Shown here in pieces: positions 11,453-36,316 of a DNA stretch of 64,000 nucleotides (within the stretch, counting starts at the first letter, position 1; each line of letters starts with the position of its first letter). Below the pieces are notes generated by a model. It saw only the letters and a list, made by a program, of their open reading frames with translations, did no database searches and was not told the DNA's origin. Position numbers and translations under genes: made by a program. The stretch is from Methylococcus mesophilus (GTDB taxonomy: Bacteria; Pseudomonadota; Gammaproteobacteria; Methylococcales; Methylococcaceae): assembly GCF_026247885.1 (NCBI RefSeq), contig NZ_CP110921.1, forward strand, positions 620,001-684,000, read 5' to 3'.

Positions 11453-12924
11453 TCCTGCTCTGGCTGATCCTGGTTCCCCTGATCGGCGGGCTGCTGTCGC
11501 TCCCGGCCGGGCGCTGGCGGGACGACGCTCCGCGCTGGCTGGCGCTGGCCGCCTTGGCCGTCGACGCCGCGCTGGTCCTGTCCCTGTTCGCGGACACCGG
11601 CGCCGCGCCCAAAACCGCCTGGCTGGCGCAGATCGACTGGGCCTGGATCCCGCGCTTCGGAATCCGCTTCCATCTGGCTCTGGACGGGCTCAGCCTGCTG
11701 CTCGTCGCCCTGACGGTATTTCTCGGCTTCGCCGCGGTGCTCTGCTCCTGGACCGAGATCCGCGAACGCCAGGGTTTCTTCCATTTCAACCTGCTGTGGA
11801 CGCTGGCGGGGGTCATCGGGGTGTTCCTCGCCCTGGACCTGTTCCTGTTCTTCTTCTTCTGGGAAGTCATGCTGATCCCGATGTATCTCCTGATCGGCAT
11901 CTGGGGCCACGAGAACCGGGCCTATGCGGCCATGAAGTTCTTCATCTTCACCCAGGTCAGCGGACTCTTGATGCTGATCGCGATCCTCGGTCTGGTGTTT
12001 CTGCACTACCAGACGACGCGGACCCTGAGCTTCGACTATTTCGAGCTGCTCGAGGCCGATCTTTATCCCGGCGCTGCCCGCTGGATCATGCTCGGCTTCT
12101 TCGTCGCCTTCACGGTCAAGCTGCCAGCCATTCCCTTCCACACCTGGCTGCCGGACGCCCATACCCAGGCGCCGACCGGCGGCAGCGTCCTCCTCGCCGG
12201 GGTGTTGCTGAAGACCGGCGCCTACGGCCTGCTGCGCTTCGTGATCCCGCTGTTTCCCGGTGCGGCGCAGGATTTTGCGCCTTTCGCCATGGCGCTGGGC
12301 GCGGTCAGCATCCTCTATGCCGCCAAGCTCGCCTTCGCCCAGACCGACCTCAAGCGCCTCATCGCCTACACCAGCGTCAGCCACATGGGCTTCGTGCTGC
12401 TCGGCGCCTTCGCCGGCAATGCGCAAGCACTGCAGGGCGCGGTGATGACCATGCTGGCCCACGGCGTCAGCGCGGCAGCGCTGTTCATGGTCGCCGGCGC
12501 CCTGCAGGAGCGGCTGCACACCCGCGACATGGACAAGATGGGAGGCTTGTGGGCACTGGCGCCCCGCATCGGAGCGATCACCCTGTTCTTCTCGGTCGCC
12601 GCGCTGGGCATGCCTGGGCTGGGCAATTTCGTCGGCGAATTTCTGGTGCTGCTGGGGAGCTTCCGCGTCGATGCCGCCATCACCGCGTTCGCCGCGCTCG
12701 GCCTCATCCTGGCGCCGGTCTATGCGCTGTACGTGATGCAGCGGGCGTTCCACGGGCCGGCTTCGCCCCGCGAAATCCGCGACTTCGGCCTGCGCGAAAT
12801 GGGGGTGATGCTGTTCCTGATCGCCGCGACGACCTGGATGGGGCTCCATCCCCAATCCATGCTGGCCTACACCGACGCCACGGTGAACGGACTGACCCGG
12901 ACCCTGGCCCAGCGAGGAACCTGA
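11449..12924 (+). CDS. nuoM: NADH-quinone oxidoreductase subunit M
   Basis: Second antiporter-like pump of the membrane arm. It shows FFFWEVMLIPMYLLIGIWG with the essential glutamate, PAIPFHTWLPDAHTQAP, and TDLKRLIAYTSVSHMGFVL. Two in-frame ATGs (11443 and 11449) are possible; 11449 is chosen because it overlaps the nuoL stop as at other junctions here. Length is about 491 residues, typical of the family. Confidence 0.96.
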   Translation: MILLWLILVPLIGGLLSLPAGRWRDDAPRWLALAALAVDAALVLSLFADTGAAPKTAWLAQIDWAWIPRFGIRFHLALDGLSLLLVALTVFLGFAAVLCSWTEIRERQGFFHFNLLWTLAGVIGVFLALDLFLFFFFWEVMLIPMYLLIGIWGHENRAYAAMKFFIFTQVSGLLMLIAILGLVFLHYQTTRTLSFDYFELLEADLYPGAARWIMLGFFVAFTVKLPAIPFHTWLPDAHTQAPTGGSVLLAGVLLKTGAYGLLRFVIPLFPGAAQDFAPFAMALGAVSILYAAKLAFAQTDLKRLIAYTSVSHMGFVLLGAFAGNAQALQGAVMTMLAHGVSAAALFMVAGALQERLHTRDMDKMGGLWALAPRIGAITLFFSVAALGMPGLGNFVGEFLVLLGSFRVDAAITAFAALGLILAPVYALYVMQRAFHGPASPREIRDFGLREMGVMLFLIAATTWMGLHPQSMLAYTDATVNGLTRTLAQRGT

Positions 12925-12925
12925 C

Positions 12926-14410
12926 GTGACCGCCGACGCATTCACCGCCCTGCTCCCCTTCATCGTTCTGTCGGCGGCCGCCGTCGCCGTGATGCTGGCC
13001 ATCGCGATCCGGCGGAGCTTCCGCCTCATTTTCTGGCTGACGGTCGGCGGGCTGCTGGCGAGCCTGTCCACCCTGCCCCACGCTTTGTCCGTCGCACCGC
13101 TCCGGGTCACGGACCTGCTGCTGGTCGACGCCTACGGCCTGTTCTTCCATGCGCTCTTGCTTCTCGCCGCGCTCGCCGTCGCCCTCCTGTGCCTGGCGTA
13201 TTTCCGCCGGCGCGAGAATGAGAACGAAGAAATCTTCGTGCTGCTCCTCACCTCGACCCTGGGGGCACTGCTGCTGGTGTCCAGCGCCCATCTCGCCATG
13301 TTCTTCCTCGGCCTGGAGGTGCTGACGATCTCCCTGTTCCCCATGATCGCCTACAGCGTCCGGGCCTCCCGCCCGCTGGAAGCGGGCATCAAATACCTGA
13401 TGCTGTCGGGACTCGCCTCCTCTTTCCTCATGTTCGGCATGGCACTGGTCTACGGCGACCTGGGCGTGCTCTCGTTCGAACAGATCGGCGCGAGCGGCGC
13501 GGAACTGGAGCAAAAGCCGCTCGCTCTCGCCGGCCTGTTCCTCATCCTGGCCGCGATCGGCTTCAAGCTGTCGCTGGTGCCGTTCCACCTGTGGACGCCG
13601 GACGTCTACCAGGGCGCGCCCGCGCCGGTCACCGCCTTCCTGGCGACCGTGTCGAAGGCGTCCGTGTTCGCCCTGCTGCTCAGGTTTTTCACCACCGTCC
13701 ATGCCGAGCGCTCGGAAACCTTTCTCTGCGTGCTCGGACTGCTGGCCGTCGTGTCCATCCTGGCCGGCAATCTCCTGGCGCTGCTGCAGGACAGCCTGAA
13801 ACGCCTGCTCGCCTACTCATCGATCGCCCACATGGGCTACCTGCTGGTGGGATTCGTCGCCGCGGGGCTGCTGCGGCGGGACCTGCAGGCGGAAACGATC
13901 GCCTTCTACCTCGCCGCCTACACGCTCACCAGCCTGGCGGCCTTCGGCGCCATTTCGGCCATTTCCGACGACGCCCGCGAATCCGACCGGCTCAGCGACT
14001 ACGCCGGCCTGTTCTGGCGCTCGCCTTGGCTCGCCGCGGTACTGACGCTCTCCCTGCTGTCTCTGGCGGGCATCCCGCTCACGGTCGGCTTCGTCGGCAA
14101 GTTCTACGTCTTCGCCGCCGGCGTGCAGGCGGAGACCTGGCCACTGGTGGCCACCGTCGTCGTCGGCAGCGGCATCGGCATCTACTATTACCTCCGGGTC
14201 GTGCTGGCCATGATCCAGCCGGCTGACGCCGGGCATCGGCTCGCACTGCATCCGGCGGCCCGAACCGCCTTGGCCGTCACGGCGCTGCTCGTCCTCGCGG
14301 CCGGATTGTTCCCTCAGCCGCTGATCGATGCAGCGGCGAACACGCCACATTCGCCCACCACCGCTGACAACCAGCACCGGGCCGCCGCTTTGCCGGCCGC
14401 CGGCCGCTAG
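12926..14410 (+). CDS. nuoN: NADH-quinone oxidoreductase subunit N
   Basis: Third antiporter-like pump and last gene of the operon, 494 residues. Seen are FFLGLEVLTISLFPMIAY, KLSLVPFHLWTPDVYQGAPAPVTA and SLKRLLAYSSIAHMGYLLVG, all typical of NuoN. The start is a GTG at 12926, one base after the nuoM stop. The C-terminal tail after the last helix is poorly conserved. No convincing terminator follows; the next gene starts 68 bases downstream on the same strand. Confidence 0.96.
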   Translation: MTADAFTALLPFIVLSAAAVAVMLAIAIRRSFRLIFWLTVGGLLASLSTLPHALSVAPLRVTDLLLVDAYGLFFHALLLLAALAVALLCLAYFRRRENENEEIFVLLLTSTLGALLLVSSAHLAMFFLGLEVLTISLFPMIAYSVRASRPLEAGIKYLMLSGLASSFLMFGMALVYGDLGVLSFEQIGASGAELEQKPLALAGLFLILAAIGFKLSLVPFHLWTPDVYQGAPAPVTAFLATVSKASVFALLLRFFTTVHAERSETFLCVLGLLAVVSILAGNLLALLQDSLKRLLAYSSIAHMGYLLVGFVAAGLLRRDLQAETIAFYLAAYTLTSLAAFGAISAISDDARESDRLSDYAGLFWRSPWLAAVLTLSLLSLAGIPLTVGFVGKFYVFAAGVQAETWPLVATVVVGSGIGIYYYLRVVLAMIQPADAGHRLALHPAARTALAVTALLVLAAGLFPQPLIDAAANTPHSPTTADNQHRAAALPAAGR

Positions 14411-16725: not shown

Positions 16726-16743
16726 GGCGGCAAGCTTGCCGCC
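16726..16743. repeat. 18-base perfect palindrome (REP-like)
   Basis: GGCGGCAAGCTTGCCGCC is its own reverse complement and lies between cdsA and cas6. The core GGCAAGCTTGCC recurs at 34226-34237, and a half form appears upstream of the promoter-like elements at 19935 and 23132. No T-run follows, so it is read as a dispersed repeat rather than a terminator. Confidence 0.6.
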
Positions 16744-16809: not shown

Positions 16810-17769
16810 ATGATTTGGCCCGGTCTGCCCATTGCCCGCTATCGCTTCGAATTCTCCTCCGAGTTGCCGGTCCGGCTGCCCGAGTATCCCGGCTCCGCCT
16901 GGCGCGGCGCCCTCGGCCATGCGCTCAAGCGCGCGGTCTGCGTGGTCCGCGGCACCCCCTGCAAGGACTGCCTGCTCTACCGCGCCTGCGTCTACTCCTA
17001 CGTATTCGAGACACCGCCACCGGCGGCGGCCCTCAAGATGCGGAAATACAATGCCGCCCCGCATCCGTTCGTGCTCGACGTGCAGCCCAATCCCGAGCCC
17101 CAAGTCTTCCGGCTCGGCCTGACCCTGATCGGCCAGGCCGAACGCCAGTTGCCTTACCTCGTACACGCCCTGCAACAGGCAGGACGGCAGGGCATCGGCA
17201 AACGGGACAACCGGCTCGAACTCCAGGCCATCCAACAGACCGACGGCAACGGCGGCATCCACCCGATCTGGACCGCCGAACAGCCGCTCATTCCGCTGCC
17301 GGCCTCAATCCCCGTCATCCCGCCGCCGCCGGAACGCTGCCGGGTCCAACTGGAAACCCCCCTGCGCCTGCGCCGGGAAGAGCACCAGGTCGGCCCCAGG
17401 GATTTCGGCTTCGCCGACCTGTTCGGCACGCTGCTGCGGCGCCTCTCCATGCTCAGCTATTTCCACACCGACACCCCCCTGGAAACCGATTTCGCCGGTC
17501 TCATGGCCCAGGCCCGCAGCCTCGTCGTGAAAGAAGCCGAGCTGGCCTGGCACGACTGGACCCGCTATTCCTCCCGGCAAGACACCACCATGCAGATGGG
17601 CGGACTCACAGGCAGCTTCGTCCTCGACGGCACGGCCCTCGCCCCGTTCTGGCGTTACCTCTGGCTGGGCCAATGGACCCACGCCGGCAAGGCCACCAGC
17701 ATGGGCTTGGGCCGCTACCGGCTCCACACCGAACCCGCGGACGTACCGCAGCCCGCGGCGACGGCCTGA
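16810..17769 (+). CDS. cas6: CRISPR pre-crRNA processing endoribonuclease Cas6
   Basis: RAMP-fold RNase of 319 residues that cuts repeat RNA to give crRNAs. N-terminal SAWRGALGHALKRAVC leads into a cysteine cluster (CKDCLLYRACVYSYVFE) common in this Cas6 clade (PF10040 type). The glycine-rich RAMP loop lies near the C-terminus in GKATSMGLGRYRL. It is the only Cas6 in the window and should serve both arrays, whose repeats differ by two bases. Start chosen at ATG 16810, where homology begins; an overlapping longer frame has no support. Confidence 0.9.
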   Translation: MIWPGLPIARYRFEFSSELPVRLPEYPGSAWRGALGHALKRAVCVVRGTPCKDCLLYRACVYSYVFETPPPAAALKMRKYNAAPHPFVLDVQPNPEPQVFRLGLTLIGQAERQLPYLVHALQQAGRQGIGKRDNRLELQAIQQTDGNGGIHPIWTAEQPLIPLPASIPVIPPPPERCRVQLETPLRLRREEHQVGPRDFGFADLFGTLLRRLSMLSYFHTDTPLETDFAGLMAQARSLVVKEAELAWHDWTRYSSRQDTTMQMGGLTGSFVLDGTALAPFWRYLWLGQWTHAGKATSMGLGRYRLHTEPADVPQPAATA

Positions 17770-17809: not shown

Positions 17810-18940
17810 ATGGAAACGCCAGAACTCCCCTACCCCCGGCGCATTCTGCTTGCAGTGACCGGCCTCACGCCGCAAGTCGTCACTGAAACCCTCTATGCCC
17901 TTCGCCGTCGAGGGGATCAAGCCCTGCCGACCGAAATCCATCTCCTGTCCACCGCCGACGGCATCGAACGCGCCCGGCTCACCCTGCTCAGCGACGAGCC
18001 CGGCTGGTTCCACCGGCTGCGGCGGGATTACGCGCTGCCGGCCATGCGATTCGACGAATCCTGCCTGCACGTCCTCGAAGACGGCGCCGGGCGGGCGTTG
18101 ACCGACATCCGCACCGAAAGCGACAACATCGCCGCCGCCGACACCATCACCGACTGGATCCGCCACCTCACCGACGACGACGCCTCCCAGCTACACGTCT
18201 CGCTGGCCGGCGGACGCAAATCTATGGGATTCTACGCGGGCTACGCCCTTTCGCTGTATGGCCGGCCCCAGGACCAGCTCTCCCATGTGCTGGCGATGCC
18301 GCCGTATGAATCGTACCCGGACTTCTTCTACCCCACCCCGGCCAGCCGCATCATCTATACCACCGGCGCCGACAGCCGGCCGCTGGACACCAAGGCCGCC
18401 GCCGTCACCCTGGCCGACATACCCTTCGTCCGGCTGCGGCAAAACCTCCCCAAGACCCTGCTCAAAGGCCGCGCCCGCTTCTCGCACGTGGTGGACGCCG
18501 CTCAATCCTCGCTGACCCAGCCCAAATTGACGATTGATCTTGAACGCCGGAGTATCCAGGCCGGCGGCCTCAGCCTAACCCTCGCCCCGACTCAACTGGC
18601 CTTCCTCGCCTGGTTCGCCCGCCGCCGGCTGGCGCAAGCGCCGGCGCTGTGCTGCCCCTCGGACGGCGTTTCCGAACCCGACTACGCCGCCGCCTACCTC
18701 AGCAAATACATGAAAATCATCGGCGCCATGGGTGACGGCGACCGCACCCAAGAGCGGCTTCGGCACGGCATGGACAAAGCGTTCTTCGAGCAGACCAAAT
18801 CCAAACTGCACCGCCGCATCGACGACCTGCTCGGCCATGCCGCCGGCCCCTACCTGATCGGTCACGACGGCGGACGCCCCCGGCGCTTCGGCCTCACCCT
18901 CCCGCCGGAAGCCATCCGCTTCGGCCGCATCGAAGGCTGA
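17810..18940 (+). CDS. CARF-domain CRISPR protein, NE0113 (TIGR02584) family
   Basis: 376 residues. The N-terminal Rossmann-like CARF domain starts with RRILLAVTGLTPQVVTETLYAL and carries the ligand-site motif LHVSLAGGRKSMGF around residue 130. The C-terminal part (LTLAPTQLAFLAWFARRRL onward) looks like a winged-helix region. No HEPN RxxxxH motif or other effector domain is seen. The family is annotated as a type III accessory and named a ring nuclease in some databases, so it may degrade cyclic oligoadenylate or act as a signal-responsive regulator. It follows cas6 by 40 bases and precedes array 1. Confidence 0.85.
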   Translation: METPELPYPRRILLAVTGLTPQVVTETLYALRRRGDQALPTEIHLLSTADGIERARLTLLSDEPGWFHRLRRDYALPAMRFDESCLHVLEDGAGRALTDIRTESDNIAAADTITDWIRHLTDDDASQLHVSLAGGRKSMGFYAGYALSLYGRPQDQLSHVLAMPPYESYPDFFYPTPASRIIYTTGADSRPLDTKAAAVTLADIPFVRLRQNLPKTLLKGRARFSHVVDAAQSSLTQPKLTIDLERRSIQAGGLSLTLAPTQLAFLAWFARRRLAQAPALCCPSDGVSEPDYAAAYLSKYMKIIGAMGDGDRTQERLRHGMDKAFFEQTKSKLHRRIDDLLGHAAGPYLIGHDGGRPRRFGLTLPPEAIRFGRIEG

Positions 18941-19346
18941 AGCCGCCCCCCGCACACCGACCTCCACACCGGCCACCACGGCGCCAGACCTTCGAGCGCG
19001 ACATGTTCCTGAAATCACACCTTGATGAAGAAACCAATCTTCGCGGTCGCCGGCCCACACCTGTCCGCAGGCAGCACAGCTTGGCAACGGACAGAACGCT
19101 CCGAAGCCATGAATACCGGCTACAAGCTCGTTGGCGGCGCGCTCCGATGCCCAGTACCCCATCGCTCCGGTCACTTGCCCACCTACCGGCCGTGTTTTGC
19201 CTCCCCACGGAATCCCATGTCGCATACCGACCAAGTCGGCGAGTGAATTCCGCGGCTTGCTCACCACCGGCCTCGATGCTTAACTACGGCCTGGAACCTG
19301 CGCCGTCAAAATCCAGCGAGGCGCCGGTTCGCGCATGGCTGCCGAA
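18941..19346. other. Intergenic stretch upstream of CRISPR leader 1
   Basis: About 400 bases without a supported gene. Long minus-strand frames cross it but extend antisense into the NE0113 gene and match no family. The only feature is weak similarity near 19275 (GATGCTTAACTACG) to the region before leader 2 (36663, GATGGTTTACTACG), which may mark the outer edge of a duplicated leader. Confidence 0.4.
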
Positions 19347-19426
19347 AGTCAGCTTTTCGAGCGGCCGATTTTTCTTCAACCCCCTCTATAACAAAATGAT
19401 TTTTAAGGAGAAATATGACGAAGCAG
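19347..19426 (+). promoter_or_regulatory. CRISPR array 1 leader (conserved proximal part)
   Basis: The 80 bases before repeat 1 closely match those before array 2 (36721-36799): shared blocks AGTCAGCTTTT, GATTTTTCTTCAACCCCC, a short A/T-rich part, AAGGAGAAA and ATGACGAAGCA directly at the first repeat. Conservation between two otherwise separate arrays is what a leader with adaptation signals predicts, and fixes transcription as left to right. Confidence 0.8.
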
Positions 19427-19886
19427 GTAGTAATCGAGACCTGATGAAGAAGGGATTAAGACACGACAGGCGCGAACGTATTCGTCTATCCGTCCCAGGT
19501 AGTAATCGAGACCTGATGAAGAAGGGATTAAGACTCCACCAACTCGACGGACGCAAGAATCGCATTCGGTAGTAATCGAGACCTGATGAAGAAGGGATTA
19601 AGACTAGTCTCAAGTCAGTCTGTTAGTGTCGCTCTAGCGGTAGTAATCGAGACCTGATGAAGAAGGGATTAAGACAAGACTTCTTCATCAGTTGTGTTTA
19701 GCTTTTCAGGGTAGTAATCGAGACCTGATGAAGAAGGGATTAAGACTAGAGCAAGCGTATCAGCGTTCATAGTCTAGTCGGTAGTAATCGAGACCTGATG
19801 AAGAAGGGATTAAGACCGCCATTCGGAATCTGGCTGTTCAGCACAGCCGCGTAGTAATCGAGACCTGATGAAGAAGGGATTAAGAC
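19427..19886 (+). CRISPR. CRISPR array 1, 7 repeats and 6 spacers
   Basis: Seven identical 36-base repeats starting GTAGTAATCGAGACC and ending GGGATTAAGAC, at 19427, 19499, 19569, 19640, 19711, 19781 and 19851. Spacers are 34-36 bases. The repeat end ATTAAGAC suits the 8-base 5' handle of type III crRNAs, so the plus strand is the crRNA strand. No degenerate final repeat is seen, unlike array 2. The fourth spacer (19676-19710) contains 12 bases that are the exact reverse complement of part of the repeat. Confidence 0.98.
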
Positions 19887-19902
19887 CGCCGGGGTAGAAC
19901 CG

Positions 19903-20145
19903 GCACTCCCCGTCCGCTCCGCCCGCCATCACCCGGCAAGCTTGCGATATCTGACAAGGATCAGTCGCTTGCACTACACTTCGCGGCGCCGTGAATGCTC
20001 AGGCGCACCGCGGCGGATACGCCCCCCTCGATCAAAGGAGCACGGCATTGATCCTTCAGGAACGTCTCGACGCGTCGAGCCCGATGGCGCCGGCGGCTGT
20101 TCTTCGCTATCCAGGGAAAGTCGGCGGACGCGCCCGCCTCGGCGG
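19903..20145 (+). repeat. Direct repeat of the cas10 promoter and start region (partner 23095-23347)
   Basis: This segment matches 23095-23347 over about 240 bases with scattered mismatches and small gaps: CGGCAAGCTTGCGATA, the CTGACA/TACACT promoter-like pair, GCGGCGGATACG-type sequence, ATCAAAGGAGCA and the first codons of cas10. It shows that a copy of the cas10 upstream region and gene start once lay here. Confidence 0.85.
19951..19980 (+). promoter_or_regulatory. Promoter-like element upstream of nudix-cad1 (copy 1)
   Basis: CTGACA (19951-19956) and TACACT (19975-19980) with an 18-base spacer fit a sigma-70 promoter. The same arrangement is found upstream of cas10 (23148-23177) and, with TAGACT, downstream of array 2 (37461-37490). 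All share the GCAC just before the -10-like box. Assignment is by motif and repetition only. Confidence 0.5.
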
Positions 20146-20197
20146 AAAGGAAGGCTACGCGAATTTCCGCTCCGGTCTGGACACTTTGGAAAGTTAG
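20042..20197 (+). pseudogene. Fused remnant: cas10 start joined in frame to csm5 end
   Basis: The 52-codon open frame begins where cas10 would start (ATG has become ACG) and reads LILQERLDASSPMAPAAVL, matching LTLQERLDASSRMALAAFL of Cas10. After roughly codon 35 it switches to NFRSGLDTLES and stop, matching EFRSGLEALES and stop of Csm5. The HD dyad of Cas10 (LHDLGK) is lost (LRYPGK). A second cas10-csm5 block thus appears to have existed here and lost its interior, about 6.6 kb if like the present operon. A functional peptide is unlikely but not excluded, since a TTG start and the ribosome site AAAGGAG remain. Confidence 0.8.
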
Positions 20198-20222
20198 CCT
20201 CGGCTCCCCTCGTCACGTAATC

Positions 20223-20876
20223 ATGGAAAGCGAAGTTCTCGTCATCCCACAGCCCTATTGGTCGGCCCTGGAAACCGTGATGACGGATGATTCCGCACGG
20301 TCTCCTGCCAAAGCCGGCAAAGCCTCCCCGCCGGACGAGCAAGATCCGCACGCGGCCTGGTCCCGTGCCATGAAGCATTGGCCTGCCGAGACTGTCTGGC
20401 TGCGGCGGGCCGATGCCGAGGGCGACGAGGGCTACCTGCAGATCATTCCTTATGCCCTGCTGCGGGACGGCTCCGGCGCCCTTTGGTGTTACCGCCGCCG
20501 AGGGGGTGATGCACGGCTGCGGGAACGTTTCAGTTGCGGGGTCGGTGGGCATGTGGACCGGGAGGACGAAGATGCCACCCTGGCTGCCACCGTATGGAAC
20601 GCCCTGCTCAGGGAACTCGGCGAAGAGCTGAACTGGCAACCGCCGCCCGAGCCCCACCAACCCCTGGCCTGGATTTACGAAGGAGTTTCCCCCATCGGCA
20701 GAGTCCATGCAGGCCTGCTTTATCTGCTGGACTGGCGAGGCGCCGAGCCGCCCCGGTCGGTCGATCCTGCCTTGGCCGGCATGGGTTTCCTCCCGGCGGC
20801 GGAAATCATTGCCGAACCTCGTTTCGAATTGTGGAGCCGGCTTGCCGCCCGGCATGTTTCGGAGCGCGGCGAATGA
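20223..20876 (+). CDS. Nudix hydrolase (COG4112-like) in the CRISPR locus
   Basis: 217 residues. The start SEVLVIPQPYW resembles MutT-family proteins of the COG4112 type. The Nudix box is recognisable though spaced out: GVGGHVDREDED, then about a dozen residues, then LLRELGEELN, which supplies the metal-binding REUxEE part. Such enzymes cleave nucleoside diphosphate linkages. Its stop overlaps the start of the Cad1-like gene by four bases (ATGA), a strong sign of joint action. Possible substrates are inosine nucleotides produced by the deaminase, or cyclic or linear oligoadenylate; nothing in the sequence decides. Expression probably comes from the element at 19951-19980. Confidence 0.85.
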   Translation: MESEVLVIPQPYWSALETVMTDDSARSPAKAGKASPPDEQDPHAAWSRAMKHWPAETVWLRRADAEGDEGYLQIIPYALLRDGSGALWCYRRRGGDARLRERFSCGVGGHVDREDEDATLAATVWNALLRELGEELNWQPPPEPHQPLAWIYEGVSPIGRVHAGLLYLLDWRGAEPPRSVDPALAGMGFLPAAEIIAEPRFELWSRLAARHVSERGE

Positions 20877-23002
20877 CTCACATCCTGCTTTGCACCTTGG
20901 GCGCCTCCTGGGCCGTCATCCCCGAGGCATACGGCTTTCTCGCCCCCGACCGTCTGCCACTGTTGCAAAATCATCCGGCGAGCGAGGAACTCGCCGCGCT
21001 GCGCTCCCGCTACGGTTTGGCCGCACCCGACGAGATCTGGGTGTGCACGACGCAAGGCGACAGAACCCGCGAGAGCATCGATTCTCTGCTCGACTGGCAT
21101 CGCTGCCTGGATTTCCCGGTCGCACTGCGAATCTGGCAGGCACAAGGCACGGACCAGCTCGCCAGCCAGGCTGAATGCGACCACATGCGTGAACTGATCC
21201 TCCGCGCGGCGCTGCTCGCCCACGATCACGCCCGAGGCGGGCAAGTGCTGCTGTCGCTGGCCGGCGGGCGGAAGACCATGAGCGCCGATCTGCAGCGGGC
21301 CGCTTCGGTGTTCGGCTGCCAGGCCTTGCTGCATGTGATCGAAAACGAGATGCCGCCGGTATTGAAGAATCCCAAGCCGGAATTCCTGACCCGCCCGCTT
21401 CCCGCCACGGTCGACGCAGGCCGGAGCTGCGCCGGAACCATCCTGCCGCTGATCGCCACCGGGGCTTCGCCCCGCAGCGAGTTGTTGGACGTCGCCTTGG
21501 ATGAGCGTCCGCCGGTCTCCGCCGGCCGCTTTCCTTTGCCCCTGCCCGAGCCGGGGGCCGTTCTGGCTTGGGCCGCACCGCCAGCCTGTGCCTTGGCGCA
21601 GGAGTTGGGCGAACGCGACACCGCGGGGAGCCGCCTTCTCGGCAATTACCTGCAGCAACTGAGCCACGCCGAGCAGCACGAAAACTGGCGCAGCCTGTAC
21701 CGCCTGCCGCCTCGCACCATCGAAGCGCTCCGCGCCACGCCGCTTGCGCCCGATCACCGGGGCTGGCTGGAACGCCTGCCCAAGGCGGATCTGCACCGGC
21801 ATTTGGGGGGCTGTCTCGACCTCGCCGCCCAGCGGGACGTCGGCCAGGCGATCTGGCAGACGCTGACGGACACCGAACGCTCTGCGGCTTTGGCCCGTGT
21901 GGCGTCGCTGCTCCAAACCCCGGACTGGCCCGATGACTGGCCGAACCAGCTCCGCGCAGCGCCGCAGCCCCGGTCGCATTGCGCCGCAGCCCTCTTGGTG
22001 GAAGCCGACGACGATTGGCTCCACCGCAATCTGTACGGCGTCACCGAGCCGCGCATTGCCCTGCGCGAAAGGCATCCGCTGAAATTCGCCGCTTACGAAC
22101 GTCCCGGCGAGTTGTCCGGTTCCGCTCTGTTGGCGCACCCGGCAGCCATCGAGCCGTATGCCCGCGCGGTCGTCCGCCAGGCCCTCGATGAAGGGCTCTT
22201 GTATGTCGAGCTACGCGGCAGCCCCCAGAAATACGGCGATGGCCTCGCTTTTCTGCGGCAACTGCGCGAGGCCTTGCACAAGGCCCTGCCCTGTCCCGCC
22301 GACGGCCCGGTTCCGCGCTTTTCCTTCACCGTCATCGCCGACCGCCGCCAGCGCGACCGCATCGCCCAGGTGATCGAGCTCGCCGTGCAAGCCAAGGAGG
22401 CGATGCCGGATTTCGTGGCGGGGTTGGACCTGGCCGGCGACGAGGGCACCACCCGGCCGGAGGAGATCGCCAGCCCGTTCAAAAAAGCATTCGAGATTTG
22501 CCTCCCGATCACCATCCACGCCGGCGAAGGCGAATCGGCCGAATCGATCTGGCAGGCCGCCTATCATCTGCACGCGGACCGGATCGGCCACGGACTCAGC
22601 ATTGCCGAACATCCCCAATTGGCGGAGCGCTTCCGCGACCGCGGCATTTGCCTGGAGCTTTGCCCGACCTCGAATCGGGAAGTCGTCGGCTACCGCGATC
22701 CCGCCGTGGAATCGAGCCAGGGCTGCCCGGCTTACCCGGTGTTGGAGCTCTGGCAAAAAGGACTGCCGCTGACCTTGTGCACCGATAACCCCGGCATCAG
22801 CCGCACCCGCTTAAGCGATGAATACCTGGCGGCGGCGCGCATGAGCGGCGGCAAACTCTGTCTTTGGGATGCGCTGGCCATGATCCGGCAGGGATTCACC
22901 CACGGCTTTCTGCCGGCGCCTGACAAGGCGGAATTGCTCCGCGCCGCCGATGCCCAAATCTATCGGCGGGTGCTCGATGATTTTGCTGACATCCCGGCTT
23001 GA
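20873..23002 (+). CDS. cad1: CARF-adenosine deaminase fusion (Cad1-like type III effector)
   Basis: 709 residues. The N-terminal part is a CARF domain: ILLCTLGASWAVIPEA at the start and LLSLAGGRKTMSADL at about residues 124-138. A linker of about 150 residues leads to an adenosine/AMP deaminase domain: LPKADLHRHLGG with metal ligands H308 and H310, IHAGEG with H549 and catalytic E552, HADRIGHG, LELCPTSN and CTDNPGIS with D638. All metal and catalytic positions expected for the family are kept. Related Cad1 proteins bind cyclic oligoadenylate and deaminate ATP to ITP during phage infection. ATG 20873 overlaps the nudix stop. Confidence 0.9.
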   Translation: MTHILLCTLGASWAVIPEAYGFLAPDRLPLLQNHPASEELAALRSRYGLAAPDEIWVCTTQGDRTRESIDSLLDWHRCLDFPVALRIWQAQGTDQLASQAECDHMRELILRAALLAHDHARGGQVLLSLAGGRKTMSADLQRAASVFGCQALLHVIENEMPPVLKNPKPEFLTRPLPATVDAGRSCAGTILPLIATGASPRSELLDVALDERPPVSAGRFPLPLPEPGAVLAWAAPPACALAQELGERDTAGSRLLGNYLQQLSHAEQHENWRSLYRLPPRTIEALRATPLAPDHRGWLERLPKADLHRHLGGCLDLAAQRDVGQAIWQTLTDTERSAALARVASLLQTPDWPDDWPNQLRAAPQPRSHCAAALLVEADDDWLHRNLYGVTEPRIALRERHPLKFAAYERPGELSGSALLAHPAAIEPYARAVVRQALDEGLLYVELRGSPQKYGDGLAFLRQLREALHKALPCPADGPVPRFSFTVIADRRQRDRIAQVIELAVQAKEAMPDFVAGLDLAGDEGTTRPEEIASPFKKAFEICLPITIHAGEGESAESIWQAAYHLHADRIGHGLSIAEHPQLAERFRDRGICLELCPTSNREVVGYRDPAVESSQGCPAYPVLELWQKGLPLTLCTDNPGISRTRLSDEYLAAARMSGGKLCLWDALAMIRQGFTHGFLPAPDKAELLRAADAQIYRRVLDDFADIPA

Positions 23003-23147
23003 TATCGTTTTTCAACGGATAACTCATCGGATAGCTCGATGGCTTCGCTCGTTAGGTGTCCACGAGTTTTTAGTTTCGGGGCAGAGGCGAAACCAGCACT
23101 CCCTTCCCGTACCCCCGCCCCGTTCTCATCCGGCAAGCTTGCGATAC

Positions 23148-23177
23148 CTGACAGGGATCAGCCGCTTGCACTACACT
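23148..23177 (+). promoter_or_regulatory. Promoter-like element upstream of cas10 (copy 2)
   Basis: CTGACA (23148-23153), 18-base spacer, TACACT (23172-23177), 65 bases before the cas10 ATG. It is embedded in the direct repeat shared with 19903-20145, which suggests that the csm operon and nudix-cad1 answer to the same control. Confidence 0.5.
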
Positions 23178-23241
23178 TCCGGCCCTTGCTAACACCCAGG
23201 CGCACTGCGGCGGATACGGACCGCGCATCTATCAAAGGAGC

Positions 23242-26004
23242 ATGGCATTGACCCTTCAGGAACGGCTCGACGCTTCCAGCCGCATGGCGCTGGCGGCTTT
23301 TCTTCACGATCTGGGTAAGTTCGCCGAACGCGCCCGTATAGGCGAAGCCAATGAAAAACGCGCCGATGGGACCACACGCATCGCGCTGGAAAAACAACTC
23401 CACTGCCCCAGTTTCAACGGTCGACATACTCACATCCATGCGGCTTACACCTCGATCGGTTTCGATTTGCTGGAACAGCACCTGCCTAATCTGGTAGGGG
23501 AACACATGACGCCGTTCGCTCCCTGGCGCGATCGTGATGTCGACGACTCCATCATCAACGCCGCCGCTCGACATCATCGGCCAGGCACCTATCTGCAATG
23601 GATCGTAGCGACGGCGGATCGGCTCGCGTCCGGCTTCGAACGTGAAGAATTCGATGCCTACAATGCTGCGCCGGACGAGGAACAGCCAAAGCTCAATCAT
23701 TACACCAAGCGGCAGCTCACTCTGCTCGAAGGGATTCGCCTTCAACCCAAAGCTAATGCGGAATCGGCCCCCCAATATCGCTACCCTCTCAAGCCGCTGT
23801 CGCCGAAGTACTTGTTTCCGGTATTGGCCGAAAGCGCGGAGCAGGCCGACAGCAAGAAAGCCCAGGGCGAATATCTCGAGCTTTGGGACAGCTTCAGGGC
23901 GAATCTGGAAAAAATCCCGCAAAGCCACCGGACCGATTTGGCGCTGTGGCTGGACCATTTCGACTGCCTCTGGCAGACGTTCACTCACGCCATTCCTGCG
24001 GCCACCGCCGGGCAGGTCAAACCGGAAGTGTCGCTTTACGACCATTCCCGGACTACGGCGGCCTTGGCGGTAGCGCTATGGCGCTTCCATCAGGACCGGG
24101 GCGAGGACACTGACGCCATCCGGGAACAGTTGCGCGTGCAGTGGGACCGCCAACGTGCTGACAGCGGCGAGAGTCTCGAGGCTTGGGAGAGCGAGAAGTT
24201 CCTGCTGATCCAGGGCGATTTCTTCGGCATCCAGGATTTCATCTTCGCCAGCGGCGGCGAAACCCAGAAGCGGGCCGCCAAGCTGCTGCGAGGACGCTCC
24301 TTCTACGTCTCGCTGCTCACCGAGCTGGCAGCGCTACGGCTGCTGGAGAAGCTCGCCTTGCCGCCGACCAGCCAGGTCGTGAACGCGGCGGGCAAATTCC
24401 TGATCGTCGCGCCGAATACGGCAGAAGCCCGCGCTACGGTGGCAGAGGTTCAAGCGGAATTCGATGTTTGGTTCCTGCGCCACACTTACGGCCAATCCGG
24501 CATCGGGTTGGCCATGCTGGCGGCTCGATCGCGGGACTTCCAGGCCGGCAAACAAGATCAGGAAAGTCCGTTCCGAGCGCTCATGAAGCGTCTGTTCGAG
24601 CAACTGGATGAGGCCAAGCTCAGGCGCTTCGGGTTGTGCGGCGAGACCCCGGCCGACCCGCTGTTCCGGGATTTTCTCAACGCCTTCACCTCAAAAGGAG
24701 TTTGCGGCATCGATGGGCGTTCCCCGGCAACGGTCGAAGAAGACGGCATGCAGATCGGCGCCATGGCGGCGGACCAGATCAAGACCGGGCACCTGCTGGC
24801 AAACCGGCAGCGCGTGCTGATATCCGTCGAACGCCTGAACCACCGCGGCCTTAGCCTGCCGATCTTCGGCTTTCATGTGAGCTTTACCACCGGCGAGGAT
24901 GACAGCGGCCGATTCGGGCGCGAGGCGAAAACCGCCAATCTGCGCCGTTGCTGGGATTTTTCCCTCCCCGAATCGCCGGACGCGCCACTGTGGAAAGGTT
25001 ACTCCCGCCGCCACATCAATGCCTACGTGCCGCGCTTCGACGCCGTCAACGAGTGGGAAGCGGAACGCTACCGCGGTATAGAAAACCCGGCAACGTTCGA
25101 TCCCCACCCGAATGAAATCAAGACTTTGAACCATCTGGCGCGAGATGACCGGCAGGTCGACCCTAACGGAAACTGGTATGGGCAGGAAGCGCTCATGACG
25201 CTGAAGGGAGACGTGGACGATCTGGGACAAATATTCCAAAAAGGGCTCGAGCGACCGAGTTTCGCCAAGATGGCGGCACTTTCGCGGCAGATGAACGCCT
25301 TCTTCGCCATCTACCTGCCCTGGCTGTGCGAACACGGCGAGGACGGCGGCGTTAAGCGCTACCGCAACATCTACACCGTGTTCGCCGGCGGTGATGATTT
25401 TTTCCTGATCGGCCCTTGGCATTCGACCCTCAAACTGGCGCAGCGCATGAAGAGCGATTTCGCCAGCTACGTGGCCCATAACCCGGAAATCCACTTTTCC
25501 GCCGGGTTATCCATGACCAAACCAGGTCTGCCGATCCGCCAGTTGGCGGCGCTCGCCGAAGAGGGGCTGGAGGCGGCGAAGGCCTATCGTCCGGCCGACG
25601 CCCCGGACGCGGGTCCGGCAAAAAATGCCGTCACCTGCTTTGGCCAGCCGGTAAGCTGGAAAGACTTCGACGCCATTCTTACGCAGGAGACGGAGTTGGA
25701 ACGGCTCGCCGGTGAATTCGGATTGTCGACCGGCTATGTTTACGGTCTGCTTAATCTGACCGACATGGCGACGGCAGTGAGCCAGCATCCGGAAAACGCA
25801 CTCTGGCACGCCTATTTCGCCTACCGCACCCGGCGCATGCTGGAATCGCGCATCAAGGGCGGCGAGGACCGCGAACGCACCGAGCGGAAGCGCCGCACCT
25901 TGCAAGGCGAACTAGCCGCGGAGATCGCACACAAGGGCATCGAACAATTCGGGGCGGCCTACAAGATCGCCCTGTTTACCTATCTGTATCAGCAACGGGA
26001 TTGA
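23242..26004 (+). CDS. cas10: Type III-A CRISPR protein Cas10/Csm1
   Basis: Large subunit of the Csm complex, 920 residues, longer than the usual 750-850. The N-terminal HD nuclease motif is intact (AFLHDLGKF, H22-D23). The first Palm region contains TLKGDVDDLGQIF and the second the cyclase motif TVFAGGDDFFLIG with GGDD at 716-719, so both single-strand DNase and cyclic oligoadenylate synthesis look possible. An AAAGGAG ribosome site lies before the ATG. It heads the operon cas10-csm2-csm3-csm4-csm5, and a scar of a second copy of its 5' end lies at 20042. Confidence 0.97.
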   Translation: MALTLQERLDASSRMALAAFLHDLGKFAERARIGEANEKRADGTTRIALEKQLHCPSFNGRHTHIHAAYTSIGFDLLEQHLPNLVGEHMTPFAPWRDRDVDDSIINAAARHHRPGTYLQWIVATADRLASGFEREEFDAYNAAPDEEQPKLNHYTKRQLTLLEGIRLQPKANAESAPQYRYPLKPLSPKYLFPVLAESAEQADSKKAQGEYLELWDSFRANLEKIPQSHRTDLALWLDHFDCLWQTFTHAIPAATAGQVKPEVSLYDHSRTTAALAVALWRFHQDRGEDTDAIREQLRVQWDRQRADSGESLEAWESEKFLLIQGDFFGIQDFIFASGGETQKRAAKLLRGRSFYVSLLTELAALRLLEKLALPPTSQVVNAAGKFLIVAPNTAEARATVAEVQAEFDVWFLRHTYGQSGIGLAMLAARSRDFQAGKQDQESPFRALMKRLFEQLDEAKLRRFGLCGETPADPLFRDFLNAFTSKGVCGIDGRSPATVEEDGMQIGAMAADQIKTGHLLANRQRVLISVERLNHRGLSLPIFGFHVSFTTGEDDSGRFGREAKTANLRRCWDFSLPESPDAPLWKGYSRRHINAYVPRFDAVNEWEAERYRGIENPATFDPHPNEIKTLNHLARDDRQVDPNGNWYGQEALMTLKGDVDDLGQIFQKGLERPSFAKMAALSRQMNAFFAIYLPWLCEHGEDGGVKRYRNIYTVFAGGDDFFLIGPWHSTLKLAQRMKSDFASYVAHNPEIHFSAGLSMTKPGLPIRQLAALAEEGLEAAKAYRPADAPDAGPAKNAVTCFGQPVSWKDFDAILTQETELERLAGEFGLSTGYVYGLLNLTDMATAVSQHPENALWHAYFAYRTRRMLESRIKGGEDRERTERKRRTLQGELAAEIAHKGIEQFGAAYKIALFTYLYQQRD

Positions 26005-26014
26005 GGTGAGACAC

Positions 26015-26488
26015 ATGGCGGACAATCGCGGACAGCGGCATAACACGGGACAGGGCGGGCGCGCCCCGGAGTATCGGCCCCAGCCGCCGGTACTGGACAC
26101 CAGCACGGTGACGTTCGCGCCGATCAACGCCGAGCTGTTCTGCCAGACGGCAAAAAATATGGCGCAGGCCGTGGCCGACGCGGATCGGAACAGGAATAAA
26201 TCGACTCAGTTGCGCCGTTTCTACGACGAGCTGGTGTTGTGGGAAACCCGAGTGAGCCAAGCTCCCAAGGAACATCAAGCTGACAAGTTCAACGAGTGCC
26301 TGCCTTTCATCCGCATGATCAACGCCAAGGCGGCCTATGCCGAAGGCCGCAAGCTTGTCGACTCCACATTCGTCGGTCTGCTGCACCATACTCTGGCGCA
26401 AGTCACGGACGCCAAGGCACTCGGCACCTGCAAGCTGTTCTGGGAAGCCTTTATGGGCTTCTACAAGCAATTACGCGGTGACAACTGA
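26015..26488 (+). CDS. csm2: Type III-A CRISPR small subunit Csm2
   Basis: Helical small subunit, 157 residues, that lines the backbone along the crRNA-target duplex. The family pattern KSTQLRRFYDEL and FIRMINAKAAYAEGRK is clear. The first 40 residues are a polar, Pro/Gly-rich tail not typical of short Csm2 proteins. The ATG at 26015 is preferred over an in-frame GTG three codons upstream because GAGGTGA is well placed for it. It follows cas10 by 10 bases. Confidence 0.95.
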   Translation: MADNRGQRHNTGQGGRAPEYRPQPPVLDTSTVTFAPINAELFCQTAKNMAQAVADADRNRNKSTQLRRFYDELVLWETRVSQAPKEHQADKFNECLPFIRMINAKAAYAEGRKLVDSTFVGLLHHTLAQVTDAKALGTCKLFWEAFMGFYKQLRGDN

Positions 26489-26516: not shown

Positions 26517-27242
26517 ATGAAACTCATCGCCATCCAGAAGCTCACCGGCACCCTCCAACTGGTCTCCGGCCTGCACATCGGTTCCGGCAACACCGAGATG
26601 CACATCGGCGGCACCGACAACCCGGTGATCAAGCATCCGCTGACTCAGCACCCCTACATCCCCGGCTCCAGCCTCAAGGGCAAGATCCGCAGTCTGCTCG
26701 AATGGGAGCTGGGCGTGGTAGGCATCACCGACAGAGATCCGCTGGGCTTCAAACACATCGGAAAGATGGAGCCTGCGCAGCGCGAGACCGCCAAGGACCT
26801 GCTGCGGCTGTTCGGCGGCGCGCCGGAGGGCGGCAATCACTACAGCGACCTGGTGAAGGAGATTGGCCCCACCCGCTTGGCGTTCTGGGACTGCGCTCTG
26901 GAGCCCGGCTGGATCGAGGAAATGAACGGCCGCAACCTGTTACTAACCGAGAACAAGTCGGAAAACATGATCGACCGCATCCGTGGCGTGGCCGAACATC
27001 CCCGCAACACCGAGCGGGTGCCGGCTGGGGCACGCTTCGAGTTCAGTCTGACCCTCCGGCGCCACGATACCGACGGTGACCTGCTGGCAGCCGTGTGGAA
27101 AGGCCTGAAACTGCTGGAACTGACCGGCCTGGGCGGGTCCGGCTCGCGCGGCTATGGCAAGCTGAAATTCACCCGGCTGGAACTGGACGGGGAAGACCGG
27201 CTGCCGCAACTGCGGGAAATCCGCTTCAATGCAGCTGCCTGA
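26517..27242 (+). CDS. csm3: Type III-A CRISPR RAMP Csm3
   Basis: Backbone RAMP protein (Cas7 family), 241 residues, which cuts target RNA every six bases. The Asp corresponding to the catalytic residue is D34 in MHIGGTDNPVIKHP. Other family segments are PYIPGSSLKGKIRSLLE and the glycine-rich GLGGSGSRGYGKLKF near the end. Together with intact Cas10 this predicts a complex able to cleave and then release target RNA, which ends signalling. Confidence 0.96.
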   Translation: MKLIAIQKLTGTLQLVSGLHIGSGNTEMHIGGTDNPVIKHPLTQHPYIPGSSLKGKIRSLLEWELGVVGITDRDPLGFKHIGKMEPAQRETAKDLLRLFGGAPEGGNHYSDLVKEIGPTRLAFWDCALEPGWIEEMNGRNLLLTENKSENMIDRIRGVAEHPRNTERVPAGARFEFSLTLRRHDTDGDLLAAVWKGLKLLELTGLGGSGSRGYGKLKFTRLELDGEDRLPQLREIRFNAAA

Positions 27243-27307: not shown

Positions 27308-28273
27308 ATGAACCTTTACCGGCTCACCCTGCGCCCACTCTCCGCCTTCGGTTCGGAACCCCTGGGCGACATGCTGTTCGGCCAGTTGTGCTGGGCTGCG
27401 CGCAACCGCTACAGTGAGGAACGGCTGGGTGAGTTGCTGACGGGCTATACCGCTAACCGACCCTTCGCCGTGATTTCCGACGCCCTGCCGGCCGGTCATC
27501 TGCCCCGTCCCGCCCTGCCCGGACATTGGTTTGAGACTATCGACAACGAAGACCGAAAGGCAGCGAAGAAGCGAGTCTGGATGCCTCTGGAGCTTGCCAC
27601 TGCCCCCGTCGCCGAATGGGTCCGACACTGCAAGGCTCCGGGGGATATCGCCGGCGCGATTCCCCGCGAGCATTCCCAGCCGCACAACACCATCCACCGC
27701 CAGACCGGCACCACCGGCGAAGGCCAGTTCGCTCCCTATGCCATGAGCCAGCTCTGGTACGGCCTGGATTCGGTGCTCGAGGTGTACGCCGGACTGGACG
27801 AATCACGCCTGAGCGCTGGCGAGCTAGAAGCTTTGTTCGGCGACATGGGGACGTTCGGTTTCGGCCGCGATGCCAGCATCGGTCTGGGCAAATTCCAGGT
27901 GCTGCGCATAGAGCCGTTCGCTTGGCCCGAGCCAGCCAGCACCGATGCCTGGCTGACGCTGGCCCCATGCGCGCCGCAGGGATTGGGCTTCGATGCCAGC
28001 CGCAGCTTCTATCGGATATTCACCCGCTTCGGCCGTCACGGCGATATCGGGGTGCATCAGGGCCATCCGTTCAAGACCCCTGTCCTGCTGGCTCAAACCG
28101 GCGCCGTGTTCGCCCCTATCCCGCGTGCGGGAGCTGAATCGACGGGAGGGGCATTCATCGGTCAGGGCTTGGGCGGTGGCAATACCTTGTCCCGCGCCAT
28201 ACCCGGCACCGTACACCAGGGCTATGCGCCCGTCATCGGCATCCAACTGCCGCAGAGGGAGGCGGCCGCATGA
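27308..28273 (+). CDS. csm4: Type III-A CRISPR RAMP Csm4
   Basis: Cas5-group RAMP, 321 residues, that caps the crRNA 5' handle and contacts Cas10. Csm4-typical features are the start LYRLTLRPLSAFGSEPLGDMLF split over the first 25 residues, HNTIHRQTGTTGEGQFAPY, and the glycine-rich DMGTFGFGRDASIGLGKF. It starts 65 bases after csm3, the widest gap in the operon, and its stop overlaps the csm5 start (ATGA). Confidence 0.94.
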   Translation: MNLYRLTLRPLSAFGSEPLGDMLFGQLCWAARNRYSEERLGELLTGYTANRPFAVISDALPAGHLPRPALPGHWFETIDNEDRKAAKKRVWMPLELATAPVAEWVRHCKAPGDIAGAIPREHSQPHNTIHRQTGTTGEGQFAPYAMSQLWYGLDSVLEVYAGLDESRLSAGELEALFGDMGTFGFGRDASIGLGKFQVLRIEPFAWPEPASTDAWLTLAPCAPQGLGFDASRSFYRIFTRFGRHGDIGVHQGHPFKTPVLLAQTGAVFAPIPRAGAESTGGAFIGQGLGGGNTLSRAIPGTVHQGYAPVIGIQLPQREAAA

Positions 28274-29967
28274 AGGCTTTCGCCAGTTATCGGCTACACA
28301 TCACCCCCCTTTCGCCCATTCACATCGGCACCGGTGAAAGCTTCCAGCCAACCAATTATGTCATCGAAGGCGGCATCCTCCATGAATTTGATAGCGGCGC
28401 GGTGACGGAGGCGCTGTCGGCCGGGGAGCGCAAGGAACTGCTGCGGATCGCCAGCGCAAAGCCGAACGAGGAGATGATCAAGGCGATGCAGGGCTTTTTT
28501 TACAACCGCAGGGAAGCACTGCTGCCTTGGGCAGTCCACCGGGTGCCGGTTCTGCCCCAAGTCGCTAGTCTTTATGCAAGCCGGGTGGGTCAAACCGCCA
28601 ATCAGGAAAGCTCTGGCGGACAAGTGTTGAACCGCCTGGAAATCGACCGCACCGCCTTCAATCCGATCAGCCGCCAACCGGTGCTGTTCGGATCTTCGCT
28701 GAAGGGCGCGATACGGACAGCTTTGCTGGATAAGGTGAATGGAGGAAACCGGGCACTGCCCGACGAACGCAAGGGCTTGCATGAGTTCCAGGGCCGTTTG
28801 CTGAGCTATCGCGATCCGGGCAGCCGGAGGCTCAAGTTGGAACGCGATCCGCTGCGTTTGGTACAACTGTCGGATTCGGCCTGGCGAGAGTCTTCCGGAC
28901 TCACAGCCACCTCGGTGCATCTGGCCGTGAACCGCAAGAAAACGCCGGTCAAGGACGAAAAAGGCCAGTTACGCAGAGCGATGGGCGAAAATCTGTACCA
29001 GATTCTGGAATGCGTATCGCCCTGGCGCTACCGGACATTTTCCGGGCAGCTCAATCTGCAACGGCTCGACGGTTTACCCCGGCAAGAGCAAATGCCCGCA
29101 CGGGAATTTCGCTATACGGTGGAAGCGTTGGCCACGGCCTGCAACCGCTTCTATCTCCCGGTGCTGGCCGGGGAAACCAAGGCTCTGAAAGAACGCGGCT
29201 TCGCCGATCACAAATGGTGCGAAGCCCTTCAGAAGACGCTGAAGCAGTCTCAAGACAGACTCAAGGCCGGTCAAACCTTCGTGCTGCGGGTGGGACGCCA
29301 TAGCGGCGCCGAGTCGATGACGGTTTCTGGCACCCGGAAGATCAAAATATTGAAAGGCAAGGGTCAACCAGCCGATGACGCCGATGCCGCCAAAACCCTC
29401 TGGCTCGCCGCCGAAACCAAGGACCAACAAACCGGCCTGCTGCCGTTCGGCTGGCTGCTGATGGAAATCGAACCCCTGGACGCACCCGAAACCGATTGGC
29501 CGGAACTGAAGGCCTTGTGCGAGGAACGCCTGGGCGGGGCGCGCGAGTTGGCGGAGCGCCTGCAGGCGCAGACCGTTCAGGCCGAAAAAACTCGCGCCGC
29601 CGTAGCGGCAAAGCACCGCGAGGAACAAGAACGTACCCGGCTGGCAGCCGAACAGCAGGCCCGAGCCGAGCAAGAACGGGCAGAGCGTGAGCAGCGGCTG
29701 CAAACGATGGGACCGGAACTGCGCGCCATCGAGGAGTTTCGCGTCTATTACGCCGACCAAAGGCAGAAAGGCCGCTACCAGCCCGGCAGTCAATTCGACG
29801 AAAAACGCCGCGCACTCCTCCAGGCAGCCCTTGGCTGGACCGAGCCGGCGACGCGCCGGGAAGCCGCCGCGCTGCTGCGTGAAACCATCAAGAACTGGAC
29901 CGATTGGCCATCGAAAAAGGAACGCAAGGCGGAATTCCGCTCCGGCCTGGAAGCGCTGGAAAGCTGA
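28270..29967 (+). CDS. csm5: Type III-A CRISPR RAMP Csm5 with long C-terminal extension
   Basis: RAMP subunit at the crRNA 3' end. The N-terminal part (YRLHITPLSPIHIGTGESF, LFGSSLKGAIRTALLD) is standard Csm5. The protein is 565 residues, well above the usual 350-400. From about residue 415 a charged heptad-like coiled coil (ERLQAQTVQAEKTRAAVAAK and repeats of AEQ/ERAE) leads to a compact tail ending FRSGLEALES. The tail also survives in the scar at 20042-20197, so the extension is an old part of this gene. Its role is unknown; in other type III systems host nucleases contact Csm5. Confidence 0.92.
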   Translation: MKAFASYRLHITPLSPIHIGTGESFQPTNYVIEGGILHEFDSGAVTEALSAGERKELLRIASAKPNEEMIKAMQGFFYNRREALLPWAVHRVPVLPQVASLYASRVGQTANQESSGGQVLNRLEIDRTAFNPISRQPVLFGSSLKGAIRTALLDKVNGGNRALPDERKGLHEFQGRLLSYRDPGSRRLKLERDPLRLVQLSDSAWRESSGLTATSVHLAVNRKKTPVKDEKGQLRRAMGENLYQILECVSPWRYRTFSGQLNLQRLDGLPRQEQMPAREFRYTVEALATACNRFYLPVLAGETKALKERGFADHKWCEALQKTLKQSQDRLKAGQTFVLRVGRHSGAESMTVSGTRKIKILKGKGQPADDADAAKTLWLAAETKDQQTGLLPFGWLLMEIEPLDAPETDWPELKALCEERLGGARELAERLQAQTVQAEKTRAAVAAKHREEQERTRLAAEQQARAEQERAEREQRLQTMGPELRAIEEFRVYYADQRQKGRYQPGSQFDEKRRALLQAALGWTEPATRREAAALLRETIKNWTDWPSKKERKAEFRSGLEALES

Positions 29968-30032: not shown

Positions 30033-30675
<643 letters not shown>

Positions 30676-34561: not shown

Positions 34562-34568
34562 CATTCCC

Positions 34569-36313: not shown

Positions 36314-36316
36314 ACC

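Follow-up and report, generated by a model that had tools for sequence, protein, structure and literature searches.

A probable deletion scar of a csm operon next to a CRISPR array in Methylococcus mesophilus

Cad1, in which a CARF domain is joined to an adenosine deaminase, is described in PMC11645235. Membership of the Cad1 type would entail deamination of ATP upon activation by cyclic oligoadenylate. The stretch of DNA analysed here (64,000 nucleotides of Methylococcus mesophilus, contig NZ_CP110921.1; hereafter the window) encodes a protein that can be assigned to this type from its Pfam domains (Cas_NE0113 at 51–159, A_deaminase at 416–691), with a csm operon beside it. Comparison of the operon with NCBIfam models shows that it is of type III-A, with Cas10/Csm1 (698 bits), Csm2, Csm3 and Csm4 above the cut-offs and Csm5 below. 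In the relatives that were read, a NUDIX gene and the deaminase gene follow the csm operon, whereas in the window the pair stands in front of it. Behind CRISPR array 1, and directly before the pair, lies a short sequence that is very probably the deletion scar of another csm operon (Table 1).

Table 1. Features of the CRISPR–cas locus in the window.
Feature	Position	Strand	Remark
cas6	16810–17769		Pfam Cas6, 66 bits
CRISPR array 1, 7 repeats of 36 nt	19427–19886	+	directly upstream of scar
palindrome GGCAAGCTTGCG of scar	19935–19946	+	same motif before cas6 and cas2 of the locus
promoter-like CTGACA-18-TACACT of scar	19951–19980	+	hexamers as before cas10
Shine-Dalgarno AAAGGAG of scar	20034–20040	+	−7.9 kcal/mol
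decayed cas10 5' end, from TTG	20048–20145	+	two compensating 1-nt indels, HD motif lost
csm5 3' end with stop (FRSGLDTLES-stop)	20146–20197	+	homology to csm5; stop as in G005 csm5
NUDIX gene	20223–20876	+	weak Pfam match, 21.8 bits (cut-off 21.1)
NE0113/CARF-type domain fused to adenosine deaminase (Cad1-like)	20873–23002	+	Pfam
palindrome and promoter-like site of intact operon	23132–23177	+	motif and promoter scan
intact cas10	23248–26004	+	ORF listed from ATG 23242; TTG 23248 likely start
csm2	26006–26488	+	NCBIfam, above cut-off
csm3	26517–27242	+	NCBIfam, above cut-off
csm4	27308–28273	+	NCBIfam, above cut-off
csm5	28270–29967	+	NCBIfam csm5, 30.2 bits (under cut-off 38.3); also by operon place
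cmr5 3' end remnant (14 protein letters)	30608–30649	+	between phd-like and PIN genes
cmr6, sole complete cmr gene in window	31347–32543	+	398 aa (464 in G005)
cas2-cas1-cas1-like-cas2, before array 2	34277–36634		order kept in relatives

A sequence-only reading of the window had proposed that the start of cas10 is joined here in frame to the end of csm5, next to a copy of the cas10 promoter. Both homologies were confirmed by alignment, shuffles and genome search. In an alignment within the window, 19898–20144 was about 80% identical (78–81%) to the cas10 promoter and start at about 23100–23344, and a repeat search returned matches of 19906–20021 with 23103–23218 (78%), of 20028–20144 with 23228–23344 (81%), and of 20146–20193 with the csm5 end at 29916–29963 (79%). 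The scar reads LILQERLDASSPMAPAAVLRYPGKVGGRARLGGKEGYANFRSGLDTLES, the corresponding cas10 start LTLQERLDASSRMALAAFLHDLGKFAERARIGE and the csm5 end KERKAEFRSGLEALES. As for the promoter copy, the homology to cas10 reaches upstream across the entire promoter, ending 5–12 nt from the last repeat of array 1. The cas10 part gave a local alignment score of 246 (maximum of 500 shuffles, 33). The csm5 part scored 46 (shuffle maximum, 35), far better than chance, with an equally good score in 0 of 2000 shuffles. An ungapped scan of the whole window on both strands placed the 52-nt tail of the scar, after itself, best at the csm5 end (39/52; runner-up, 28). Searching the 4.34-Mb genome with 19887–20222 (E ≤ 0.001; 40 of 53 first-look candidates scored) returned, besides itself, only the cas10 start and the csm5 end. 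No Rfam family matched the window at the gathering threshold.

The fused frame had been read as 52 codons from 20042. The fusion stands and the start does not, as 20042 is ACG, not ATG. The frame runs instead from TTG at 20048 for 49 codons and a stop (20048–20197). This TTG, six bases past 20042/ATG and corresponding to 23248 in cas10, is present in the scar, the present copy, G005 (a genome of the same genus) and G003. The Shine-Dalgarno of cas10 lies one base before the ATG and seven before the TTG, and G003 cas10 has the TTG without the ATG. For these two reasons, cas10 probably starts at TTG 23248 rather than at the listed ATG 23242. The stop codon and the tail of the scar frame, FRSGLDTLES, end the csm5-derived part, the stop matching that of G005 csm5. 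The best break point between cas10 and csm5 lies after 20144, 20145 or 20146, with at most two shared bases in this register, so that no deletion mechanism can be deduced. The missing interior was expected to amount to about 6.6 kb; the present copy puts it at about 6.57 kb, and G005 at 6.69 kb (6691 bp).

Of 258 aligned columns, 207 are identical between scar and present copy. The cas10-derived part contains two compensating 1-nt indels, which put a few codons out of frame, and the HD motif of Cas10 reads RY. Base changes in the csm5-derived 3' part affect codon positions 1 and 3 alike, and nonsynonymous and synonymous changes are mixed in the protein part. Judged informally and from few sites, coding constraint has been lost. 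Because of the RY motif, the indels and the spread of changes over codon positions, the protein part looks dead, a decayed gene from which no Cas protein would be made. In decay simulations, an open frame with its start and end stop was kept by chance in 5–13% of runs with the two indels, and in 16–41% without them. Selection on the open frame, tested by this simulation, was not significant, and the survival of the frame is weak evidence of use.

Comparison with G005 suggests which copy is the original. The order there is cas6, NE0113/CARF, small genes, the decayed remains of a leader and of a single repeat (7 mismatches) where the window has array 1, cas10-csm2-csm3-csm4-csm5, NUDIX, deaminase, cmr1-6, cas1/cas2 and a long array. 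On both sides of the scar, the window contains the same genes in the same order. G005 differs in having the csm operon intact in the slot, array 1 reduced to the one decayed repeat, and extra small genes between CARF and cas10 (lipoprotein-like to the eye; Pfam gave one weak BamE match in three). Among its cmr genes, cmr2, cmr4 and cmr5 exceed the NCBIfam cut-offs, cmr3 falls just under, and cmr1, without a family match, was named by place. Window positions 20026–20142 match the G005 cas10 start, and 20146–20254 align without interruption from its csm5 end across the gap into the NUDIX start. The flanks of the scar are thus those of the G005 csm operon, indicating that the scar sits in the ancestral csm slot. 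The intact window operon matches the same G005 operon again (76–78% DNA identity), and stands behind the deaminase gene and before a phd-like antitoxin gene. In G005 and in G002, the nearest relative, the phd-like gene stands between cmr3 and cmr4, and the intact operon therefore fills the place of cmr1-3. By this comparison, the ancestral position, flanked by the NE0113/CARF gene with array 1 on one side and by the NUDIX-deaminase pair on the other, is occupied by the scar, and it is the intact operon that has moved. The G005 order thus supports the earlier proposal that this was the site of a second csm operon, of which only the two ends escaped deletion.

Gene order in further relatives is consistent with this assignment. 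Wherever the order was legible, in 19 of 19 relatives, the csm genes precede the deaminase gene on its strand. These comprise, the window's own genome aside, five genomes of the family (G005, G041, G042, G051, G019) and 14 of 17 order-level loci, which were read to no more than about 10 kb past Cad1, a limit beyond which a csm copy would be missed. Three of the 17 (G156, G102, G212) have no csm gene in the stretch. Left out of the count were G166, G195, G120 and G191, which have near full-length Cad1 matches, and G043, with csm and Cad1 on different contigs.

We infer that the second copy came first and the deletion after, and that the second copy arose by duplication, for which an event inside the lineage is the likely setting. 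Trees grouped the window with G005, leaving G003 outside, for csm5 (support 100/98), CARF (97/93), cas6 (83/81), cas10 (83/80) and csm3 (80/68); the csm4 tree did not resolve the three. Upstream, scar and present copy are 0.79–0.94 identical by segment, and G003 and G005 are only motif-like there. Most trees thus give the operon and its neighbors the same history, and scar and working copy seem more alike than either is to G005, which suggests duplication inside the genus. Identity at 4-fold sites between window and G005 was 210/371 (0.57) for cas10, 82/120 (0.68) for csm3, 78/140 (0.56) for csm4, 160/231 (0.69) for csm5, 228/332 (0.69) for Cad1 and 131/187 (0.70) for CARF; for CARF, Cad1, cas1 and cas2 together the range was 0.66–0.73. 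The NUDIX gene (69% amino acid identity; 36/83 4-fold sites, 0.43) is more diverged from G005 than its neighbors. Although the scar-to-copy identity covers regulatory as well as coding positions and can be set beside the 4-fold values only loosely, it suggests that scar and present copy diverged after the separation from G005. Among the first 20 codons, four sites join scar and present copy and one joins scar and G005; in the last 17 codons (the 51-nt 3' tail), no site joins scar and present copy and three join scar and G005. Identity to G002 at 4-fold sites is uneven (CARF, 167/208; TM1812-type gene, 179/202; first cas2, 44/49; two cas1-like genes, 123/177 and 59/114). The locus is therefore a mosaic, and the csm duplication may date back to the divergence from G002. 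Of the cas1-like genes of the window, the second matches Cas1 models weakly.

The disagreement between the 5' and 3' site patterns leaves room for another source of the downstream operon, namely recombination from an unsampled close relative, by which it replaced cmr1-3 before the resident operon was deleted to give the same scar. Module exchange is seen at the same slot, where the cas10/csm3 set of G002, elsewhere the closest relative, is no more than 32–44% identical; in its 3' tail the scar resembles G005 more than the present copy; and the 4-fold identities of cas10 and csm4 to G005 fall below those of CARF, Cad1, cas1 and cas2. The values for csm3 and csm5 are not lowered, however, and that of NUDIX is lower still. 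Since the csm5, CARF, cas6, cas10 and csm3 trees all pair the window with G005, two of them strongly, and the upstream similarity of scar and copy is reduced to motifs in G003 and G005, we regard such an import as less likely and prefer duplication. A duplication of a larger block was also considered, but a search behind the present csm5 for traces of NUDIX or of a Cad1-cmr1 junction gave nothing that scored above shuffles. An origin of 23003–23100 elsewhere in the genome was sought as well; the search gave no more than a 24-nt match (E 0.008) and a 25-nt match (E 0.69).

The earlier reading took the scar as a trace of a past duplication or replacement of a type III complex. This is supported, and the scar may do more than record the past. 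Its promoter-like hexamers at 19951–19980 (+) are identical to those before cas10 (23148–23177), its Shine-Dalgarno is intact and equal in energy to that of cas10, and its TTG start is unchanged relative to the working operon. A sigma-70 promoter scan of 18900–23400 on both strands passed only two sites, those of the scar and of cas10; as this consensus scan gave no leader promoter for array 1, it is not exhaustive. No terminator-like site was found between 19980 and 20223, and the intact promoter elements and ribosome-binding site are thus followed by none before NUDIX. The NUDIX gene begins 25 nt downstream of the stop codon that closes the scar frame and is without a Shine-Dalgarno of its own (anti-Shine-Dalgarno pairing of +0.6 kcal/mol, vs −6.2 in G005). 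We lean towards the view that the scar is a promoter and leader still serving the NUDIX-deaminase pair. The two genes would be transcribed from the scar, and ribosomes ending at 20197 could help NUDIX to start.

The same scar could also be inert, merely decaying while the pair is expressed from another start, for example by read-through from array 1, which lies upstream in the same direction and whose transcription could enter the scar. The lack of clear constraint on the protein part is in keeping with this, and so is the statistic for the promoter: the palindrome-promoter block is 44/48 identical, vs 207/258 overall, which is not significant (permutation p 0.14). Yet palindrome, hexamers, Shine-Dalgarno and start are all unchanged, and no other site in the scanned interval passes on either strand, and we consider an inert scar a serious but less probable reading. 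A working gene for a small protein, suggested by the open frame, its good Shine-Dalgarno and the 5–13% chance of survival with two indels, is very improbable. With the 49-aa frame as query, 38 family genomes, its own included, yielded at E ≤ 0.001 the frame itself and the cas10 starts of its own genome and of G005, all further matches having E ≥ 0.008, which does not indicate a conserved unrelated gene; moreover, codon positions 1 and 3 have changed alike in the 3' part, and the frame is shifted internally. The chance resemblance of an unrelated small gene was rejected by the shuffles, the genome search and the family search; although the csm5-like part spans only 48 nt, none of the 2000 shuffles did as well and the match runs unbroken into NUDIX in G005, which makes coincidence negligible. 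The use of the scar as a leader might, more broadly and only tentatively, exemplify a principle by which start-to-end scars are kept in frame as they serve the genes behind: here, csm promoter, palindrome and coupling leader would place the NUDIX-deaminase effector under private control. The effector would then be made apart from the complex that signals to it, yet under the same cas-locus regulator. If so, an in-frame scar of cmr4 start and cmr5 end in G051, of another genus, could be a second case.

The palindrome GGCAAGCTTGCG (19935–19946, +) is near-perfect and identical in the cas10 promoter (23132–23143). The motif GGCAAGCTTGC(C/G) occurs at six distinct places in the genome, four of them in the locus, at 16729 (before cas6), 19935 (scar), 23132 (before cas10) and 34226 (before cas2). 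The count is unremarkable (8 strand matches vs 5 for the reversed control). The clustering is notable: with scar and cas10 counted as one, 3 of 5 places fall in 0.4% of the genome, with a chance, computed post hoc, of about 7e-7. Exact copies precede cas6, cas10 and cas2 in G003, and cas6 and cas2 in G002; in G005, copies with one mismatch precede cas10, cmr1 and cas2 and lie at the start of the listed cas6 frame. Matches also occur inside genes (G002 at 11600 and 24709; the Cad1 genes of G041, G042 and G019), and the motif is therefore not confined to promoters. The palindrome is a candidate operator of a putative cas regulator, and, being common to cas promoters, offers a handle on one.

The locus bears further marks of loss. 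The last codons of cmr5 lie at 30606–30660 between the phd-like and PIN genes (tblastn E 7e-5 in a 1.4-kb search space), and the DNA match to G002 is contiguous from 30606. These remains of the lost cmr4-5 are, by homology, a second deletion scar, that of a type III-B module from which cmr6 alone is left. A stretch of 112 nt at 19018–19129, before array 1, derives from the start of the first small gene, which G002 and G005 have complete with two followers; the followers gave no match in the window. Lying between the CARF gene and array 1, this remnant is best read as a third scar, and the locus is one that has been pruned repeatedly. In G002 (C1:3524001-3562000), a long array 1 is followed in the same slot by the different cas10/csm3 set, and the deaminase gene has no match. 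Together these two observations suggest that parts of the locus move between genomes. In G051 (L043, G051:C113), 12886–13128 joins the start of cmr4 in frame to a later part of cmr5, with a stop before the cmr5 end, and the cmr6 behind it is split over two frames. Two labels were dropped, there being no Pfam match: that of a vapC-like frame at 30033–30302 (−) and that of a transposase behind array 1 in G002.

Homology, position and gene order are direct observations, and the following history would account for them. The ancestor would have carried CARF gene, array 1, promoter, cas10-csm2-csm3-csm4-csm5, NUDIX, deaminase and cmr1-6, essentially as G005 does. In the line of the window, a second promoter-cas10...csm5 copy would have replaced cmr1-3 downstream of the deaminase gene. 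This would have made the original copy redundant, and a deletion of about 6.6 kb in it would have followed, reaching from about codon 33 of cas10 into csm5 and sparing only the last 17 codons there. The remnant may still give a promoter, an operator-like palindrome, a ribosome-binding site and a 49-codon leader frame ending 25 nt before NUDIX. The NUDIX and deaminase genes, once directly behind csm5, would now be transcribed, and perhaps translationally coupled, from it.

In a literature search that included the available parts of PMC11645235, PMC12669027 and PMC12924245, we found no such csm scar and no such palindrome, which is no proof of absence from print. With the relatives at hand, the direction of a type III locus rearrangement can be fixed: the old slot was emptied and the working copy is the moved one. 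The locus also shows the shrinkage of a III-A/III-B tandem to one complex, and provides a testable case of an effector gene pair that may owe its own promoter to a deletion. Start-to-end deletion remnants of operons, in which the first codons of the first gene are joined to the last codons of the last, are ordinary pseudogenes. Unlike these, the scar of the window keeps its regulatory part and stands directly before two intact genes. It is a case of ordinary genome decay, unusually well documented, and a remnant of a known kind that is well placed; its proposed use as a control element for the effector pair is what could lift it above that kind.
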